From: a virus
Length of the DNA stretch: 46,599 nt
Virus record (IMG/VR): IMGVR_UViG_3300017744_000017
Coordinates: 1 to 46,599 of that record
Strand: one strand, 5' to 3'
Both the position numbers and the translations under genes were made by a program. Each line of letters opens with the position of its first letter. The stretch's first letter is position 1. Under the pieces are notes generated by a model. That model was not told the origin of the DNA and did no database searches. It saw only the letters and a program-made list of their open reading frames with translations. Shown here piece after piece: positions 4,331 to 20,785 of this stretch.

Positions 4331-6301
4331 TTAGAATGGATGATCACTGTCTGGTGTAATATTGACTGGTGTTGCCGTAGTTAACGTTTCTTTGTTCAGA
4401 GTTAACAGTTCAGTGTCAGCGTCTGATATGAAAGCTGCAGCTGGCGGAGTAAAGTCTGCACTATAACGCGCAGCAGAACTTATACGGAAGTCAAACAACA
4501 TTCCACCGAAGAATGCACCAATCTTGTGAGTTCCGGTAGTGCCGTAGTTCCTATCGTGTCCGTAACTTCCACCATATCCGCCTTGCTTAACACCATTCAG
4601 GTATAAGTCTACGGAAGCTGTTGGGTTTCCATTGACCGTAATCGCTGGAGACTTAACGATAGCCCAGTGGTTCCACCCTGCTTCTTGCCATATTTGTCCG
4701 TCCCACGTCATGTTGACGTCTCCACTGCCGCCATCACGGAACATTATTTCAGTTCCGCCATCCCAACCACTTATAGCGATAGTGTGTCCGTTAGAGAATT
4801 CTATCAGATTATCGTTGCCTGGGTTAACACCATCGGTGTTCGCCCAGAATTCAATCGTCCATCCAGCATCACCGTTGCTGTGAGATAGAGAACCACCTTC
4901 ATAAGTTGCATATGAAGATCCATTATCACCGAACTGCCATGCGAAAGATGGAGCTGGTGGAGCTGGTGGTGGTGGGAATGGGAATTGAACCATATGTAAT
5001 CTAGTGCTGAATTGTTGAACGTGTTCTGATCGGTCAACATTAGGTTCGTCAATTCTGTAAGGTGTCGCAGATAGGTCACTTAGGTCATATTTCCATATGT
5101 ATGATCCTGCAGCATTCCATACCTGATAAACAGATCCTGCACCTGCACTTCCTCTATCCGAAACATATAGATAATCTCCATCTGAGACCATCGATGCACC
5201 AAATCGATCGGAACCTTGATCAGTATTATTAGATAACGGTGCTGTTATTATCTGACTAGGGGAAGACAAGTTTGACTTATCATATACATAAACCCTACCC
5301 TGTTGATTGTCACTCCCTACTTTTTCAAGCATAGCACTTATGATAAACTTATCATTAGTTTCTACTACTTGAGAGGCAAATGCAGACCAGTCATTATTTG
5401 GAGATGGATAGTTTATAGTAGATACAAGGTTTCCGGTTGTTATATCTCGTATCTGCATCTGACCATAATGATTAGTCGAATTATCAGGATTGTACGACGC
5501 ATTTACGCCCACATAGATCTGACTTCCATCATTTGAAATACGTAGACCCATATAATCACAATTTCCTTGAAGATCTTGATCAGTTAGGTGTATTGGTGAT
5601 GATAGGTCGGATAAATCATATATAGAAACATTTCCATAATTAGAATTAGGACTGGAATTATCATTGTAGGCTTCGTCACCTATAACTAGATGATTGTCAT
5701 TGGCAGACATATATCTACCAAAATCGTATTGTGTGTTGACTGTAGGCCTGGTGTCCGTAATAATTGTTGGTGCCGCAGATAAATCACTAACGTCATAAAC
5801 ATAAATTTGACGACGACCTCTTGCAGAAACAAACAGGTGTGTATCATTGGCCGCTATAGAATTACCAAAATAACCATACTCTTGAGGTGATGGTTCTGTT
5901 AATGTTGCGACAGGAGTGGTTAAGTCGGACTTATCGTAAGCATATACTACACCTTGATTGATAAATCCACCAAGATCCTCATAATCAGCTGAAATAAATA
6001 ATTGAGTATGGTTGGATGCTACGACACTCTCCCCGAACCGATCACTATATCCACCCCACGGGTCAGTATCGCTGCCGTTAGGGTTATGGATTATGATAGG
6101 GTCCGCATCGATGTCATATACGTCAAACAAGTACAGTCTTTCCAGATATTTGTTAGTACCAGAAGTTCTGTTACCTTCAGCCACTCGTGCCATCAAATAG
6201 GTCGGAATTGGTGGTCCTACGTATGGTGGGTTGTCTGCGTCTACACCGGCAATTACTTGACCGGCATTAAACACCGCACCCGCTAAAATTTGATTTGCCA
6301 T
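4331..6301 (-). CDS. Beta-propeller plus LamG-like adhesin (putative receptor-binding structural protein)
   Basis: 656 aa. Residues about 20-440 consist of at least six degenerate repeats of about 55-65 residues. Each has a cue such as YDVSDLSAAPTIIT, followed by a FG-GAP-like turn (YGYFGNSIAANDTHLFVSA, DRFGASMVSDGDYLYVS), as in FG-GAP/integrin-alpha-type beta-propellers. A proline hinge (PPPPAPPAPS) near residue 450 leads to a C-terminal domain of about 150 residues with GWTIEFWANTDG, NHWAIVK and DLYLNGVKQGGY, typical of LamG/concanavalin-A-like lectins. A tail-fibre or head-decoration adhesin binding surface glycans is likely. It is flanked on both sides by head-interior candidates. Repeat and lectin assignments come from sequence patterns. 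Confidence 0.7.
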   Translation of the reverse strand: MANQILAGAVFNAGQVIAGVDADNPPYVGPPIPTYLMARVAEGNRTSGTNKYLERLYLFDVYDIDADPIIIHNPNGSDTDPWGGYSDRFGESVVASNHTQLFISADYEDLGGFINQGVVYAYDKSDLTTPVATLTEPSPQEYGYFGNSIAANDTHLFVSARGRRQIYVYDVSDLSAAPTIITDTRPTVNTQYDFGRYMSANDNHLVIGDEAYNDNSSPNSNYGNVSIYDLSDLSSPIHLTDQDLQGNCDYMGLRISNDGSQIYVGVNASYNPDNSTNHYGQMQIRDITTGNLVSTINYPSPNNDWSAFASQVVETNDKFIISAMLEKVGSDNQQGRVYVYDKSNLSSPSQIITAPLSNNTDQGSDRFGASMVSDGDYLYVSDRGSAGAGSVYQVWNAAGSYIWKYDLSDLSATPYRIDEPNVDRSEHVQQFSTRLHMVQFPFPPPPAPPAPSFAWQFGDNGSSYATYEGGSLSHSNGDAGWTIEFWANTDGVNPGNDNLIEFSNGHTIAISGWDGGTEIMFRDGGSGDVNMTWDGQIWQEAGWNHWAIVKSPAITVNGNPTASVDLYLNGVKQGGYGGSYGHDRNYGTTGTHKIGAFFGGMLFDFRISSAARYSADFTPPAAAFISDADTELLTLNKETLTTATPVNITPDSDHPF

Positions 6302-9911: not shown

Positions 9912-10390
9912 TACCATGCGCCTGGCGCTCCTTTCCTCTTAATGTACCAGATAGTACCGGACGAATCGGTGTCGGAATGTACTCTGTACTTGTTACCTAC
10001 TGCTTTCTTAACAAGACGACCATACAGTCTTTCACGACCTTGCAGTCCGGTCTTCTTGACATTCTTGTCCTTGGCAGCGGATAAGTGCATATACTTGGGA
10101 TTTTCCATTTTAATGAACTGAGTAATCATTTTCATAACAGTCGCCATGATACGTAATGCATCACCTTCACCCGTCACTTTTTGTTCACCGTTACGTTCGA
10201 AACTAATCTCCCAATCTATGTAATCATCGTCATCGATATGTTCATCACCTTCGATGTTTATATTTAATTTGCCACCATCATCAAGTTCAACTGTAGAACG
10301 ATACCCTTGTCTTCCGTCCTTCTTTAATACAGCCGGATATGGGTTGTTGAGTGTTTCTTGAAGTTCTGTAAATTCTGTAAATTTTTTCAT
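9911..10390 (-). CDS. Conserved head-region hypothetical protein (159 aa)
   Basis: The protein starts MKKFTEFTELQETLN, a cohort-type leader (MKKFxEF, then L-Q-E). The central part is acidic and beta-rich (KLNINIEGDEHIDDDDYIDW). The C-terminal region contains FIKMENPKYMHLSAAKDKN and LYGRLVKKAVGNKYRV, reminiscent of a conserved phage domain with an SxK...R..LY.RLvk pattern whose function is unknown to me. It is followed immediately by the KxDG protein (TAATG). A capsid-interior role is inference. Confidence 0.6.
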   Translation of the reverse strand: MKKFTEFTELQETLNNPYPAVLKKDGRQGYRSTVELDDGGKLNINIEGDEHIDDDDYIDWEISFERNGEQKVTGEGDALRIMATVMKMITQFIKMENPKYMHLSAAKDKNVKKTGLQGRERLYGRLVKKAVGNKYRVHSDTDSSGTIWYIKRKGAPGAW

Positions 10391-10398
10391 TATTATTC

Positions 10399-11775
10399 CT
10401 AACTATACTTTAAAAAGACCGAACTTTTCGGGGTCGAAGATGATGCTATACTTATCACTTGGGACATTACTTCATCCGATTTTCTTTTGGTCAACATAGT
10501 GTATATGAATTGCATACCTAAGAATTTACTGTATAACCACTCATTGCTATAATCCGCTAAGAATAATGCCATGTCTTCTTCAGTCATGTCCACATCACCT
10601 AAGTAATTGTACATCTTGGTGAATTCAGTAATAGTCGTGTTATTAGTAATTCTAGATTTTATCTTAAATTCGCTTTGATTGTGATACTCTCTATCGGCAA
10701 TACCAGAGAACTGTAATGCTGTCTGCAAGTTACCACCACCAATCTTACCGCCTGCGGCAGTCGTACCTTTAATCTCTCCCTGCCAACCAGACATTACCGA
10801 ACTAAATGTTCGAATTTGCATATTATACTCTTTACTGCCAAGTTTATAGGTGACATACACGTCCTTACTTGCAGTCCCTGCACGAGGGTATGAAGTCGAC
10901 CAATCTACGTTCTTACCCATACCAGAAATCGCATACTTAACAAACTTGGCTTCTGGTCTTGGAGTACCTCCGTTGAACTCTTCCTCGTAGCACGTCTTCG
11001 CATTACTTGCAAGTTTCTTCAGAGAGACTCCAATTAAATTCTTGTTCTTGTATTCCTGTAACAGTAGTTGGTTAAAATCGTCTAGATTATCTTGATCGGT
11101 GTTAAGAGAAAATCCTATTCTCATTGCCCACATGTCAGACGGGTTCCACTTGTTGACGTTAAGTGTTATACCAGCAGCTCTCTTCAACGTCTTATAGTTA
11201 TTCTCTATACTAGTGACTACTGTACCACCTCGCAAAAACTTATAGTTACCTGTCCCCAACTTACCTGACAATTTATTACTGATAACTACTGCTGAATTCT
11301 TCCATGCCTCATCTAATCCATCGAGACATTGCTTCAGAGTTCTATCACAATCGGTAAATCTGGATATAGTAGAAGCGTCCAATAAATCGATTGCCTCTAA
11401 CCAACTGTTTAAACTACTTCCTTTCTTTTGACGGGCGGCAGATACGTATGCGTGAAAACATTCACCTAGTGCGGTAATCTCATCACCGGCACCTGAACCA
11501 CCTTGTCCACTGAATGGTGCCTTATCTATCTTGGTCCAAGAATAACCATTAAATATAGGAAGAAACCTACTACCCATCTTAAAAGCACTATTGACTTTAC
11601 TGATATCTCTTTTTTTAACAGCAGATATCCAAGAAACAACTTCGTCAGTCATGTTAACTACTTGCTTATTGGTTACACCTGCGAACTTGATCTCTTTACC
11701 GTTTTCGATCTCGATTGCTACCTTCTCTAGGTAACCTTTATCGAATTTAGCATCTGATCCAGTAAAATTTGCCAT
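10399..11775 (-). CDS. Phage protein with WNPSDMW/SLKK signature (458 aa), possible nuclease-fold
   Basis: The protein lacks the cohort leader and starts MANFTGSDAKFDKGYLE. Around residues 206-260 it has VNKWNPSDMWAMRI, then a helix (LLLQEYKNKN) and LIGVSLKKLASNAK. This WNPxDxW...LI.iSLKK arrangement recurs in phage proteins and resembles a PD-(D/E)XK-type core, but catalysis is unproven. The rest is beta-rich with SGWQGEIKGTTAAGG. Its upstream region carries both a sigma-70 promoter and a late box at 11811-11838, so it is probably expressed throughout infection. Start ATG 11775 is in an open gap, with no competing frame. Confidence 0.5.
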   Translation of the reverse strand: MANFTGSDAKFDKGYLEKVAIEIENGKEIKFAGVTNKQVVNMTDEVVSWISAVKKRDISKVNSAFKMGSRFLPIFNGYSWTKIDKAPFSGQGGSGAGDEITALGECFHAYVSAARQKKGSSLNSWLEAIDLLDASTISRFTDCDRTLKQCLDGLDEAWKNSAVVISNKLSGKLGTGNYKFLRGGTVVTSIENNYKTLKRAAGITLNVNKWNPSDMWAMRIGFSLNTDQDNLDDFNQLLLQEYKNKNLIGVSLKKLASNAKTCYEEEFNGGTPRPEAKFVKYAISGMGKNVDWSTSYPRAGTASKDVYVTYKLGSKEYNMQIRTFSSVMSGWQGEIKGTTAAGGKIGGGNLQTALQFSGIADREYHNQSEFKIKSRITNNTTITEFTKMYNYLGDVDMTEEDMALFLADYSNEWLYSKFLGMQFIYTMLTKRKSDEVMSQVISIASSSTPKSSVFLKYS

Positions 11776-11810
11776 CTCTAGAATCCTCTTTACTCTAAGT
11801 TAGTCCCTAG

Positions 11811-11838
11811 AGTATAACAGATACTATTTATATGTCAA
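11811..11838 (-). promoter_or_regulatory. Overlapping early (sigma-70) and late (TATAAATA) promoter
   Basis: On the minus strand TTGACA (11833-11838) and TATACT (11811-11816) are separated by 16 bp. Within that spacer lies TATAAATA (11825-11832), the T4 late octamer. The element overlaps the stop codon of the nuclease gene (11828) and is about 36 bp upstream of the 458-aa gene. Confidence 0.6.
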
Positions 11839-12547
11839 GAGCATTTGTACTATTTTCTTCGTTATATTGGGCGATAGTATCTCGTAATGGACGCACCCAG
11901 TTGTCACGATGTTCGATAAACACCTGTGGTTCATGGTTGTCGACAGAGATAATAGTCACAAGTTGGGTGATAGGCATACCCGTGCGTTCTTCCCACATAA
12001 TAGAATATGCAGACTCTTGCATGAAGTAGTTCTTGATCCAGTCAAGACGTTTGGGTTTCATGGATGTCTTGTAGTCAATGATGGAAGGTTTGCCATCAAA
12101 GATGCCCACACAATCCACACGACCAGCGACACCTAGGTGCGTAGAGTAGAGTGGTGCTTCTTGAGCGTAGACTGTACCAAGACGTTCATCAAGGATGGGT
12201 TTGAGTTTCAGGAAAGACTCGATTAAATCGGGAGTACGTTTGGTCAACGTTTGTTCACCAGTGTCGATATTCATCGCCATGTACTTGTCATAGTCGGGGT
12301 CGTTGTTTACGTACTGTTCACAAATTTCGTGAACCGCAGTACCACGCGTAGATGCGCGATAGGAGATACGGTTTGCTTCTTTCTCACCGACACGAGCACG
12401 CCACTTTGCAATGGAGTCACGGGACAGTATAGAAAGGACCGTAGTGATAGAAGGTAGTTGAATACCTTCGGGAGTTTTGTATTGACGGCCCATGTCTGTA
12501 GTAACAGCAGTCATTTCGGTCAAAGGGATAGGTTCGTGTGTAAACAT
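11828..12547 (-). CDS. PD-(D/E)XK exonuclease (RecB/Cas4-like)
   Basis: 239 aa with the full order of RecB-type nuclease motifs: RGTAVHEICEQYV (the H of motif I), GVAGRVDCVGIF (the metal-binding D), IIDYKTS (the D-x-K core) and YFMQESAYSIMW (the Q-x-x-x-Y motif). These give a compact single-domain nuclease of the kind common in marine T4-like phages. It probably digests DNA ends during recombination or host-DNA degradation in the cytoplasm. A strong sigma-70 promoter lies directly upstream at 12579-12608, so it is likely an early gene. Confidence 0.85.
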   Translation of the reverse strand: MFTHEPIPLTEMTAVTTDMGRQYKTPEGIQLPSITTVLSILSRDSIAKWRARVGEKEANRISYRASTRGTAVHEICEQYVNNDPDYDKYMAMNIDTGEQTLTKRTPDLIESFLKLKPILDERLGTVYAQEAPLYSTHLGVAGRVDCVGIFDGKPSIIDYKTSMKPKRLDWIKNYFMQESAYSIMWEERTGMPITQLVTIISVDNHEPQVFIEHRDNWVRPLRDTIAQYNEENSTNALDI

Positions 12548-12578: not shown

Positions 12579-12608
12579 ATTATAACATCTTTTAGAAACG
12601 TTTGTCAA
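12579..12608 (-). promoter_or_regulatory. Consensus sigma-70 promoter upstream of nuclease
   Basis: Minus strand TTGACA (12603-12608), 18-bp spacer, TATAAT (12579-12584). It ends 32 bp before the nuclease start at 12547 and lies about 40 bp beyond the 3' edge of the candidate structured RNA. Confidence 0.8.
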
Positions 12609-13090: not shown

Positions 13091-13223
13091 CTTCTTTCGC
13101 TTTGCTCCACCAATCTTTGGTAACTTTATCGGTGTACTTGTGTGAGTATATGAGAGTGATGCCACCAAAAACCATCGGACATAACATCACTCCAAGTATT
13201 CCTATTAAACCAAAATCAAACAT
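13080..13223 (-). CDS. Small single-pass membrane protein (47 aa)
   Basis: Reading the minus strand from ATG at 13221-13223 to TAG at 13080-13082 gives MFDFGLIGILGVMLCPMVFG, then GITLIYSHKYTDKVTKDWW and a short KAKEDGK tail. One N-terminal transmembrane helix is followed by a basic tail. It overlaps its upstream neighbour by 8 nt and the downstream gene by 11 nt, filling what would otherwise be a gap in a tightly packed operon. Function unknown. Confidence 0.6.
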   Translation of the reverse strand: MFDFGLIGILGVMLCPMVFGGITLIYSHKYTDKVTKDWWSKAKEDGK

Positions 13224-13440
13224 TTTCAATCTGGCTCTTTACCCAATCTAGTTCTTGAATGATTCTGTTATACCATGCGACATCAATTTCAGAATTGTTA
13301 GGATTGTTTGCTTCCATCCTAAGTTGTTCCATTCGTATGTCTATGTAGTCACACCTTATAAATTCTTTTTTAGACACTCTATCTAAGAATGCTTTTTTCG
13401 CTAAGGTCAAGCATTCTACATTACTATTACTATTACTCAT
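13216..13440 (-). CDS. Hypothetical protein, coupled to cytochrome peroxidase gene (74 aa)
   Basis: I choose the ATG at 13440 (MSNSNSNVECLTLAKKAF) because it overlaps the TGA of the cytochrome gene as ATGA; the three extra codons to 13449 are unlikely. The protein is helical and soluble, with charged heptads (DYIDIRMEQLRMEANNPN, RIIQELDWVKSQIENV). No family recognised. It is translated right after the peroxidase, but a functional link is only positional. Confidence 0.6.
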   Translation of the reverse strand: MSNSNSNVECLTLAKKAFLDRVSKKEFIRCDYIDIRMEQLRMEANNPNNSEIDVAWYNRIIQELDWVKSQIENV

Positions 13441-14855
13441 TGGACACACCCTAATTCTCTGCGCGAATCTTCGTCGTTGTTAGTTACACAGAGACCAGTA
13501 GGCAACTCTGTAGGTACATATCTCATCAAGTCTGGGTCATATAAACTATTTTCTAAGAATGATACCAGATTAGATATCTCTTCCTCAGACAGATCTAGGG
13601 GAGTGAATCTATAGTCTATATCTATAAGATCTACATCTGGGTGTTGTGGTGTCGCCGCAACTTTGTATCGTACCACTTCTTCAACACTAGTGAATGATGC
13701 ACCGTGACCGAATACTTCTGTGTCTGTCAGATTATATAGAGGCGGTACCTTAAATGCATACTTCTCCATATCGTCACCAGTAAAACCAGCGCGGCCTTCT
13801 CTAACACCTTCACCGACTTCACCGATGATATCGTCCCACATGTCTAGATCGTGGAATCCAAGTGTCATAAACACTTCACTTGCAAGAGAACCGACAGGAG
13901 ATGAAAGAGCGGGACCGTTGTGACACGAGTGACAGTTACCTTTACCGAAGAACACTTTCGCGCCTTCGACTTCTTCTAAAGTCATCGCGTCTTCGTCACC
14001 ACGTAAGAAGTCTTGAAATGGTGCTTGGTTTGCGAGAATGGTTCTCTCGTATGCGGCAATCGCAAAAGATGCTGCTTCTAACATATCATTAGGTTGTGAG
14101 GTACCGTATGCCGCTTCGAACATCATCCGATACTTCTCATTAGTAGTGAGCACAGAACCTTCTTCTACATTCATGCGATGTACACCTAGACCAGCAACTG
14201 CTTGAGTCTCTAGACCAGCAAGATTACGTAGGTTAGCCTCTTTAGGAGTGCCTTCAGTGAAGTGCCTTTCAGGGTCAATACCAATGTTAACTATACCTCC
14301 GATCACATTGCCGAACTGTCCGTTCCACAACATGACTTCTTGATATGCAGTATTAAGTACTGTGGGTGATGTCACAGGTTGTACATCAACTGTTGAAGGG
14401 TCAACTCCAGCAGCAACTGTACGATGGTCAAACCCTACACCGCCTTCACCAATACCTTGACGAATACCGGACTTGAAACCATTCTGTCCGTTGTGACATG
14501 AAGCACAGGACCACGTGTTATCCATATCTGTCTGGTTGGTTTCAGTAGACGTGATTCCCGTCTCGTGATAAATGAACTTACCCAACTCTACTTTTTCAGC
14601 AGTAATAGGGTTACTTGGATCTTGAGGGATGTTTAGAAAGTCATCACTCTCAGGTAAGATATACCCTTCGTAAGAACCTGTCGGGGATGTAGTACTCATC
14701 ACAGTTTTTAGTTCTTCAACGGCAATCTCAAGTGCTGTTAAGGTAGGTGCTGGGGGTGGTGCGATGGTAACAGGTTCTGGTGCAGATTCTGAACCACCTC
14801 CAGAACATGCGCTAAGAACAGTAGTACATAATACTACGGATAATAGTTGTTTCAT
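13437..14855 (-). CDS. Di-heme cytochrome c peroxidase / MauG-like lipoprotein
   Basis: 472 aa. The N-terminus MKQLLSVVLCTTVLSACSGG is a lipoprotein signal with lipobox LSAC (Cys17), so the mature protein should be membrane-anchored on the periplasmic side. A Pro-rich linker follows. Two c-type heme motifs are visible: CASCH at about 117-121 and CHSCH at about 308-312 within the family context GKGNCHSCHNGPALS. Other family cues are MLWNGQFG, ERTILANQAPF, FKVPPLYNLTDTEVFGHGAS and FTSVEEVV. The family reduces H2O2 with electrons from small cytochromes or quinols, or oxidises protein side chains (MauG). The length fits the family with an N-terminal extension. Heme attachment would need the host Ccm system. 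Such a gene is highly unusual in a phage. It lies between small phage genes and tRNA-Ser, on the same strand, with ATGA coupling downstream. Confidence 0.9.
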   Translation of the reverse strand: MKQLLSVVLCTTVLSACSGGGSESAPEPVTIAPPPAPTLTALEIAVEELKTVMSTTSPTGSYEGYILPESDDFLNIPQDPSNPITAEKVELGKFIYHETGITSTETNQTDMDNTWSCASCHNGQNGFKSGIRQGIGEGGVGFDHRTVAAGVDPSTVDVQPVTSPTVLNTAYQEVMLWNGQFGNVIGGIVNIGIDPERHFTEGTPKEANLRNLAGLETQAVAGLGVHRMNVEEGSVLTTNEKYRMMFEAAYGTSQPNDMLEAASFAIAAYERTILANQAPFQDFLRGDEDAMTLEEVEGAKVFFGKGNCHSCHNGPALSSPVGSLASEVFMTLGFHDLDMWDDIIGEVGEGVREGRAGFTGDDMEKYAFKVPPLYNLTDTEVFGHGASFTSVEEVVRYKVAATPQHPDVDLIDIDYRFTPLDLSEEEISNLVSFLENSLYDPDLMRYVPTELPTGLCVTNNDEDSRRELGCVQ

Positions 14856-14885: not shown

Positions 14886-14976
14886 TGGCCGAGGGATAGG
14901 GATTCGAACCCTAGATACGCTATTAACGTATGCCAGTTTTCAAGACTGGTGCATTCAACCGCTCTGCCATCCCTCG
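14886..14976 (-). tRNA. tRNA-Ser (UGA)
   Basis: Acceptor CGAGGGA/TCCCTCG, anticodon loop CTTGAAA (TGA), long class-II variable arm (CATACGTTAATAGCGTATC) and T loop GGTTCGAATCC. Discriminator G and encoded CCA at 14886-14888. A near-consensus promoter lies upstream at 14989-15017. Confidence 0.95.
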
Positions 14977-14988
14977 ATTTATTTAAAC

Positions 14989-15017
14989 ATGATACACTAA
15001 TTGACAGGAGTTGTCAA
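14989..15017 (-). promoter_or_regulatory. Sigma-70 promoter upstream of tRNA-Ser
   Basis: Minus strand TTGACA (15012-15017), 17-bp spacer, TATCAT (14989-14994), ending 13 bp before tRNA-Ser. The -35 forms a palindrome with an adjacent TTGACA on the plus strand (TTGACAGGAGTTGTCAA, 15001-15017). Confidence 0.65.
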
Positions 15018-20082: not shown

Positions 20083-20111
20083 ATTATACTATATTATGAT
20101 GGGTGTGTCAA
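20083..20111 (-). promoter_or_regulatory. Perfect consensus sigma-70 promoter; -35 contains the TGA of the kinase gene
   Basis: Minus strand TTGACA (20106-20111), 17-bp spacer, TATAAT (20083-20088). The stop codon of the kinase gene (20108-20110) is the TGA inside TTGACA. Confidence 0.85.
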
Positions 20112-20785
20112 CTACCTTTTAGATTTTTTCGTTCTGCTGCTATCCACTTTTCTGCTTTCTTAGAGACAGGTTTGTCAGTGAATTTCTTTGCATCGCGGTA
20201 TGCAGTCAAAGTTTCTTTCTCGTAGTTCTTACCTTGAGAGTTATCGACCACCAAGAAGTTAGGTTTACCGAACATGCGCTGGAATTTACCAATGTTACGT
20301 TGCACTAACTTCCAATATTCAGTTACACCCTTCTCTCCTAGAGTACGTGGTCGCATTGCGTCACGAGCGATAGCAGTTTCGAGATCGGTGTTAACGAAAA
20401 TCATTGCGACATCATAACCCATCTCTTTTAGTTTCTTTGCTTGAGTTGCGACCTTGTCTGGATCTTTACCAGTACCATCGATCACTAATCCAAGACGACC
20501 TTTTAAGTATCTTGCTTCTTTGGTACCAGTAAGTTTTTTAGCCTTACCACGAACCTCTTGTCCCTTTGGTGAGAAGATGTTGTCTGGAGTCATGTCCATA
20601 CCAATCTTCTTCATTCCAGCCTCGAACGCATCGTCGGAGTTTACAACCTTATAACCAAAGGACTGTAATCCAGTTTTACCGACAATGAAAGATTTACCAG
20701 AGCCAGGACCACCCGCAAGGAAGATCGCCTTGAAGATTGCTGGATCATTTACACCTTCGTCGAGAAAGGACTTAAAAGATATCAT
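20108..20785 (-). CDS. Zeta-toxin/PNK-like P-loop kinase with capsid-targeting-like N-terminus
   Basis: 225 aa. The leader MISFKSFLDEGVND matches the cohort motif, with L-D-E before Gly. The Walker A is FLAGGPGSGKSFIVG (about 21-35). YKVVNSDDAFE is the acidic substrate-binding strand, LGLVIDGTGKD corresponds to Walker B, and IARDAMRPRTLG resembles the lid Arg region. This AAA_33/zeta-toxin group includes polynucleotide kinases and UDP-sugar kinases; similar proteins are frequent in cyanophages. The substrate is unknown. With the leader it may be packaged in the virion (inference). It is preceded 1 nt away by the SAP-like membrane protein. Confidence 0.75.
   Translation of the reverse strand: MISFKSFLDEGVNDPAIFKAIFLAGGPGSGKSFIVGKTGLQSFGYKVVNSDDAFEAGMKKIGMDMTPDNIFSPKGQEVRGKAKKLTGTKEARYLKGRLGLVIDGTGKDPDKVATQAKKLKEMGYDVAMIFVNTDLETAIARDAMRPRTLGEKGVTEYWKLVQRNIGKFQRMFGKPNFLVVDNSQGKNYEKETLTAYRDAKKFTDKPVSKKAEKWIAAERKNLKGS

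Follow-up and report, generated by a model that had tools for sequence, protein, structure and literature searches.

What does a T4-like myophage gain from a gene resembling those of bacterial di-heme peroxidases, and does the encoded protein keep what such an enzyme needs? The question is raised by an IMG/VR virus record with a T4-like myophage gene array, analyzed here over 46,599 nucleotides (the window). Aside from the gene in question, the window encodes 11 tRNAs, a DNA polymerase, a DnaB-like helicase, SbcC, and an exonuclease. It also encodes a Zeta-toxin/AAA kinase-like protein (20108-20785) that is conserved in many related phages, and a 656-aa protein with FG-GAP and laminin-G/lectin-like domains (4331-6301) that is found in only some of them. 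The original prediction described the gene product as a phage-encoded di-heme lipoprotein of the CCP_MauG superfamily. It listed an LSAC lipobox, two CxxCH motifs, and three family blocks (GKGNCHSCHNGPALS, FKVPPLYNLT, and GHGAS), all of which we found in the translated 472-aa ORF (Table 1). The ATGA coupling to the next gene could also be verified at 13440-13437, where the TGA stop of the peroxidase-family gene overlaps the start of a small ORF. This ORF was discarded as a general partner, since it is found in only some of the carrier phages. The lipobox follows a hydrophobic N-terminus, as in lipoproteins processed by signal peptidase II, and its Cys17 is kept in all 42 phage rows of the alignment. 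From the sequence, we thus expect a periplasmic protein with two hemes.

Table 1. Features of the peroxidase-family gene and its surroundings, in window positions.
Feature	Position	Strand	Remark
PD-(D/E)XK exonuclease (phrog_298)	11828..12547	minus	usual neighbor, marks the slot
Next gene, small ORF	13216..13440	minus	ATGA overlap
Di-heme CCP_MauG-superfamily lipoprotein gene	13437..14855	minus	472 aa, ATG start
Lys398	13662..13664	minus	in the E-heme axial-ligand column
CHSCH, residues 308-312	13920..13934	minus	C-terminal (electron-transfer, E) heme attachment; both Cys and His invariant in 73 sequences
His226-Arg227	14175..14180	minus	pair adjoining the place of the missing catalytic Glu; register uncertain by 1-2 residues
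Gln218	14202..14204	minus	in the column of the Gln that peroxidases and MauG conserve in the distal pocket
Trp177	14325..14327	minus	aligns with the electron-hopping Trp between hemes; invariant in 73 family members
CASCH, residues 117-121	14493..14507	minus	N-terminal (peroxidatic, P) heme attachment; invariant in 73 sequences
Lipobox LSAC, residues 14-17	14805..14816	minus	Cys17 is the predicted lipid anchor, by motif only
tRNA-Ser(TGA)	14886..14976	minus	between promoter and gene
Sigma-70-like promoter TTGACA-N17-TATCAT	14989..15017	minus	upstream of tRNA-Ser and gene

The search against Pfam that had been proposed as a check gave a match to CCP_MauG (PF03150) far above the cut-off (E 5.1e-23, 82.8 bits against 25.6). 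The AlphaFold2 model, built without the C48C1 row (pLDDT 81.7, pTM 0.85), had its best Foldseek matches in 3o5c, 6e1c, and 6fu3, with E values of about 1e-13 to 1e-14; the fold matches include Shewanella BccP (3o5c), MbnH (6e1c), Neisseria BCCP, and E. coli YhjA. Hence, the protein has both the di-heme peroxidase fold and the two CxxCH motifs that characterize the superfamily. Its scores against the NCBIfam models were far below their cut-offs for MauG (TIGR03791, 84.6 against 443.85 bits) and MbnH (TIGR04039, 106.7 against 362.85 bits), which, together with the result for SAM_quin_mod (SAM-associated MauG-like protein), rules out membership in these three groups. The RoxA-like model was not matched in the Pfam scan, no PHROGs family was matched, and the search of BFVD returned no viral structure. 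The phage protein is a member of the CCP_MauG superfamily that lies outside every named subfamily tested.

To compare the residues around the hemes, we aligned the family with 23 further members of the superfamily encoded in gammaproteobacterial genomes, and counted invariance across 73 family members (the phage subset comprising 42 rows). Both CxxCH motifs, the bridging Trp177, and the distal Gln218 are kept in the family. In the axial-ligand column of the E heme, BCCPs have Met and most MauG-like members Tyr, whereas Lys398 stands there in 73/73 family members, a register on which HMMER against PDB chains, MAFFT, and hhalign agree. The catalytic Glu is absent, with no conserved Glu at or near its place, and an invariant His226-Arg227 pair lies 1-2 positions off, in a register made uncertain by an alignment gap. 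In place of the P-heme distal-His loop of the classical enzymes, the family has a longer segment with no conserved His but with an invariant Arg145. Gln218, His226, Arg227, and Arg145 are each identical in the 73 sequences. Judging from the alignment, Lys398 and His226/Arg227 may face the heme irons. The two CxxCH motifs named in the original prediction are intact; beyond what it listed, the axial-ligand position of the C-terminal heme holds Lys instead of Met or Tyr, and the catalytic Glu is missing from the pocket.

The protein shares with the classical BCCPs (Shewanella BccP, 3o5c; Neisseria gonorrhoeae, 6fu3; Pseudomonas aeruginosa, 1eb7) the two-domain di-heme fold, the bridging Trp, the distal Gln, and the expected periplasmic location. 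It differs from them in the E-heme ligand, in lacking the Gln+Glu pair and the P-heme distal-His loop, and in being a phage-borne lipoprotein. MbnH and MauG are likewise di-heme proteins without this loop, but the phage protein has Lys in place of the axial Tyr of the 6c heme, no Glu, and no conserved partner gene that we could find. BthA of Burkholderia (6nx0), a weak sequence match, is also a di-heme CCP_MauG protein; it reduces H2O2 and is not a MauG orthologue, and it has Tyr-His on the 6c heme, a conserved Glu277, and no bridging Trp (PMC6405878). A precedent for an axial Lys on an electron-transferring heme is found in another di-heme c-type enzyme, the thiosulfate dehydrogenase TsdA of Allochromatium vinosum, which catalyzes a different reaction and has a Lys/Met ligand switch (PMC6879331). 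It is a precedent for the ligand only, and we claim no kinship. The number of natural His/Lys hemes reported is limited, and the one in TsdA has a much lower potential than a His/Met heme (PMC6879331), and a Lys-ligated E heme in the phage protein would probably be of low potential. In BCCPs and BthA, the Glu is needed for catalysis together with the Gln (PMC10094543; PMC6405878). The missing Glu and the probable low-potential His/Lys heme weaken a plain peroxidase reading, and this leaves room for roles in protein modification, lipid oxidation, or pure electron transfer. The name cytochrome c peroxidase, originally given to the protein, is supported by family and fold, but the function that it implies is tentative. 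The protein is no textbook peroxidase: two features common to characterized peroxidases and MauG/BthA, the Glu and the Met/Tyr, have given way to other invariant residues, and the distal-His loop is missing.

We then asked how far the gene is a regular part of phage genomes. A scan of viral contigs with the single protein gave 40 loci, and one with a 50-sequence alignment gave 62 IMG/VR loci encoding a relative, numbers that do not represent independent events because IMG/VR contigs include near-duplicates. Some of the carrier contigs have lengths of 137-160 kb. A copy at 69% identity, annotated as 'hypothetical protein', is encoded by phage C48C1 (OQ984149, 156 kb, Kyanoviridae), a complete circular genome with head and tail genes of the myovirus type and with a T4-like late sigma factor. 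The window genes, the other contigs, and this phage agree with the initial view that the gene is embedded among phage genes and tRNAs. The accompanying statement that no phage with this gene was known has to be amended: over 60 viral contigs carry it, as does a complete phage genome, in both cases unannotated. In most cases, one exonuclease (phrog_298) and a DUF6267 gene are found at most a few kilobases away, with other arrangements in L037-L039, L233, and L234/L240 (L followed by a number designates a locus). Among the 80 contigs closest by exonuclease, many have ample upstream sequence and no such gene, and in the ten of these gene-less contigs that were examined in detail the slot is occupied by other genes. 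Since related phages without the gene carry other genes at this place, the gene is cargo in a variable slot.

The copies in phages are under strong purifying selection: pairwise dN/dS is mostly 0.05-0.12, and reaches 0.23 and 0.34 in two pairs of close relatives. In 34 of the 39 phage copies, the 200 bp upstream contain a sigma-70-like promoter that matches at 11/12 positions or more and has a spacer of 16-18 bp, while the same criterion selects about 0.26% of Markov-randomised sequences. For comparison, the T4-type late promoter TATAAATA was found within 600 bp upstream of only one copy, at -483. As most copies have the sigma-70-like promoter and only one has the late promoter sequence, early transcription by the host polymerase is likely. 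A perfect TTGACA-N18-TATAAT promoter sequence is also present just upstream of the exonuclease gene, at 12579-12608. The gene is thus a host-related metabolic gene that resides in a phage genome under selection, i.e., a phage auxiliary metabolic gene. Like others of this kind, it is host-derived and maintained in a cargo region; unlike them, its product is predicted to bear heme, to be exported and lipid-anchored, and to depend on host cytochrome c maturation.

To trace the origin of the gene, we built phylogenetic trees, as the original prediction had proposed. The nearest clearly bacterial relatives (about 50-56%) are from Alteromonas and Glaciecola, and more distant ones occur in marine Bacteroidota and Rhodothermota. 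The phage copies cluster and branch inside the gammaproteobacterial part of the tree, among Alteromonas/Glaciecola genes, with a single Halieaceae gene among them. This gene (L043, 7839-9338), from a MAG labelled Haliea, is at 77%, encodes an expanded Gly-Asn-Ser repeat after the signal peptide, and is the single match in a search of 140 genomes from its family. It is located downstream of a tRNA-Ser and of genes that we take, from their sequences, to be alaS, lysC, and csrA, and its GC content is 45%, against 49% in the surroundings. A tree test ruled out a position of the Haliea gene outside the whole phage set (p 5e-6) but did not reject it as sister to the main phage group only (p 0.10). 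In the DNA tree it groups with L028 (96.8/96), and the Haliea gene and the L028 subgroup have a C-terminal extension in common. The better reading, which these data suggest, is a transfer from phage to bacterium; an assembly error in the MAG may be an alternative. The divergent phage copies L234/L240 adjoin a long Glaciecola branch, and holding all phage copies and the Haliea gene together was not rejected (p 0.14), so that the phage copies may have one origin or more than one. A Halieaceae host for the carrier phages is only a hint, because the tests also allow the Haliea gene to be the sister of the main phage group. No DUF6267 match was found in the Halieaceae genome, which carries no weight as control genomes were equally empty.

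What might the protein do? We give a probability of roughly 0.55 to a lipid-anchored periplasmic di-heme peroxidase that would be fed by host cytochromes c, and that would be host-derived cargo of marine T4-like phages. This is supported by the Pfam match, the fold, the invariant CxxCH motifs, Trp177, and Gln218, the conserved Cys17, the selection, the promoter, the slot, and the bacterial relatives. The latter are lone genes in aerobic marine bacteria, with no conserved partner gene in the loci that carry them, which suits a self-sufficient peroxidase. Under this model, host RNA polymerase would transcribe the gene from the sigma-70-type promoter soon after infection, and the Sec export, lipoprotein processing, and cytochrome c maturation of the host would export the protein, attach its two hemes, and tether it in the periplasm through a lipid, the outer membrane being its probable site. 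Periplasmic cytochromes c of the host would donate electrons to the C-terminal heme (His312 and the predicted axial Lys398), from where they would pass via Trp177 to the N-terminal heme. There, H2O2 or another peroxide would be reduced, with Gln218 and His226/Arg227 taking over the work of the usual Gln/Glu pair. The benefit may be an infected cell shielded from peroxide, or an outlet for surplus respiratory electrons. The presence of a peroxiredoxin in some carrier phages (C48C1, L037, and L234/L240) was counted for the peroxidase reading, but it is not tied to the peroxidase-family gene, being absent from most of the carriers searched and present in some phages without that gene. Since Redoxin thus occurs both with and without the peroxidase-family gene, we dropped the idea that the two form a fixed antioxidant pair in general. 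Redoxin genes were located at L042:349-942, L037:5126-5686, and L234:3294-3803, and also in two similar phages that have no peroxidase gene.

A bolder proposal is that the family represents an undescribed class of di-heme enzymes, in which the electron-transfer heme would naturally have His/Lys ligation and the distal pocket a His-Arg pair, conceptually nearer to heme peroxidases of the eukaryotic type than to the Gln/Glu pair of bacteria. Marine phages would spread and diversify this class, express it early, use it to rework the periplasmic redox or the envelope of the host, and have passed it to a bacterial chromosome. We hold this proposal as tentative and, taken as a whole, rather doubtful.

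Alternatively, the protein might modify a partner as MauG and MbnH do, i.e., use peroxide to oxidize Trp or Tyr in, for example, a host surface protein, thereby changing the envelope for superinfection exclusion, or in a phage product that it would help to mature. Periplasmic phage lipoproteins are known to act in exclusion. MbnH is among the best matches in both sequence and fold, the classical distal-His loop is missing as in MauG-type enzymes, and in phage L037 (at 10001-12099) a radical-SAM/SPASM gene overlaps the end of the peroxidase-family gene. However, such a gene adjoins only in L037, and the failure to come near the cut-offs for MauG, MbnH, and SAM_quin_mod speaks against this role. 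So does the absence of a conserved neighbor or partner in bacteria. As to MbnP, the partner of MbnH, a general family scan of the flanking phage ORFs gave no match. In addition, MauG-type chemistry needs both the axial Tyr and the distal Glu (PMC6405878), which are here replaced by Lys and absent, respectively. We regard a modifier as unlikely.

The absence of the catalytic Glu could also mean that the pocket was lost and that the protein merely shuttles electrons between periplasmic partners, as a carrier or sink without peroxide chemistry. This seems improbable, since the distal region shows no decay and its four invariant residues argue for a working pocket. Slightly less credible still is an oxygenase or lipid-peroxide enzyme like PA2077/PA2078 or RoxA, acting from an outer-membrane anchor on membrane lipids or hydroperoxides. 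The superfamily does include fatty-acid di-heme peroxidases (PMC4496055) and a lipid anchor would put the protein at the membrane, but PA2077/PA2078-type proteins are much larger (about 625-635 aa) and reported as a separate branch with RoxA, and in the comparison by Pfam the RoxA-like model was not matched. A phage lipoprotein of unproven function might further be a structural component related to the virion or adsorption, or an exclusion factor with incidental hemes; this is very improbable given the invariant heme motifs and pocket residues, the enzyme-like fold, and the position of the gene, which is preceded by an early-type promoter and surrounded by small cargo genes and tRNAs instead of structural genes. 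Finally, host DNA might have been joined to the contig by misassembly or contamination; the original prediction had named an assembly join as a possible refutation. Viral metagenome contigs are prone to this, and the family has bacterial members. The probability is negligible, as the identical protein is present on three other contigs, phage genes flank the gene in many contigs and in C48C1, a relative is encoded at 62 viral loci, and the phage copies cluster in the tree.

The peroxidase-family gene of the window is not the only one of its superfamily in viral contigs, as a scan with canonical BCCPs returned 20 further viral loci. In L242 (5138-6966), from another phage or prophage, the genes for the major head protein and the tape measure enclose a canonical BCCP and a cytochrome b561 gene on the opposite strand, together a respiratory cargo of two genes. 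In L254 (5977-7826), a CCP_MauG-family gene directly precedes a phage lysozyme gene. L256 (4201-6384), as well as L255 and L257-L259, encode a 727-aa CCP_MauG-family protein on viral contigs of 58-119 kb, and L244 (6013-7002), on a 171-kb viral contig, encodes a canonical BCCP lipoprotein that keeps both the Met and the Glu usual in BCCPs. The phage context is clear for L242 and L254, and the evidence is weaker for L244 and L256. Unrelated phages thus seem to have recruited the CCP_MauG superfamily more than once.

In the open-access literature, we found no relevant publication on a phage cytochrome c peroxidase, and earlier reports elsewhere are possible; neither did we find one there on phage C48C1. 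Phage metabolic genes and CCP_MauG enzymes are known kinds, but their combination and the residue pattern appear to be new within the searchable sources. The products of phage metabolic genes are, to our knowledge, mostly active in the photosynthetic membrane or the cytoplasm. An enzyme that a phage supplies for export, with hemes and a lipid anchor, would depend on the cytochrome c maturation machinery of the host, and opens the way to test whether lytic phages have a hand in managing oxidants or respiratory electrons beyond the inner membrane. This subfamily of enzymes, which is also chromosomal in marine bacteria, is a candidate for a natural His/Lys heme and for a natural replacement of the catalytic Glu that was found essential in the enzymes studied.
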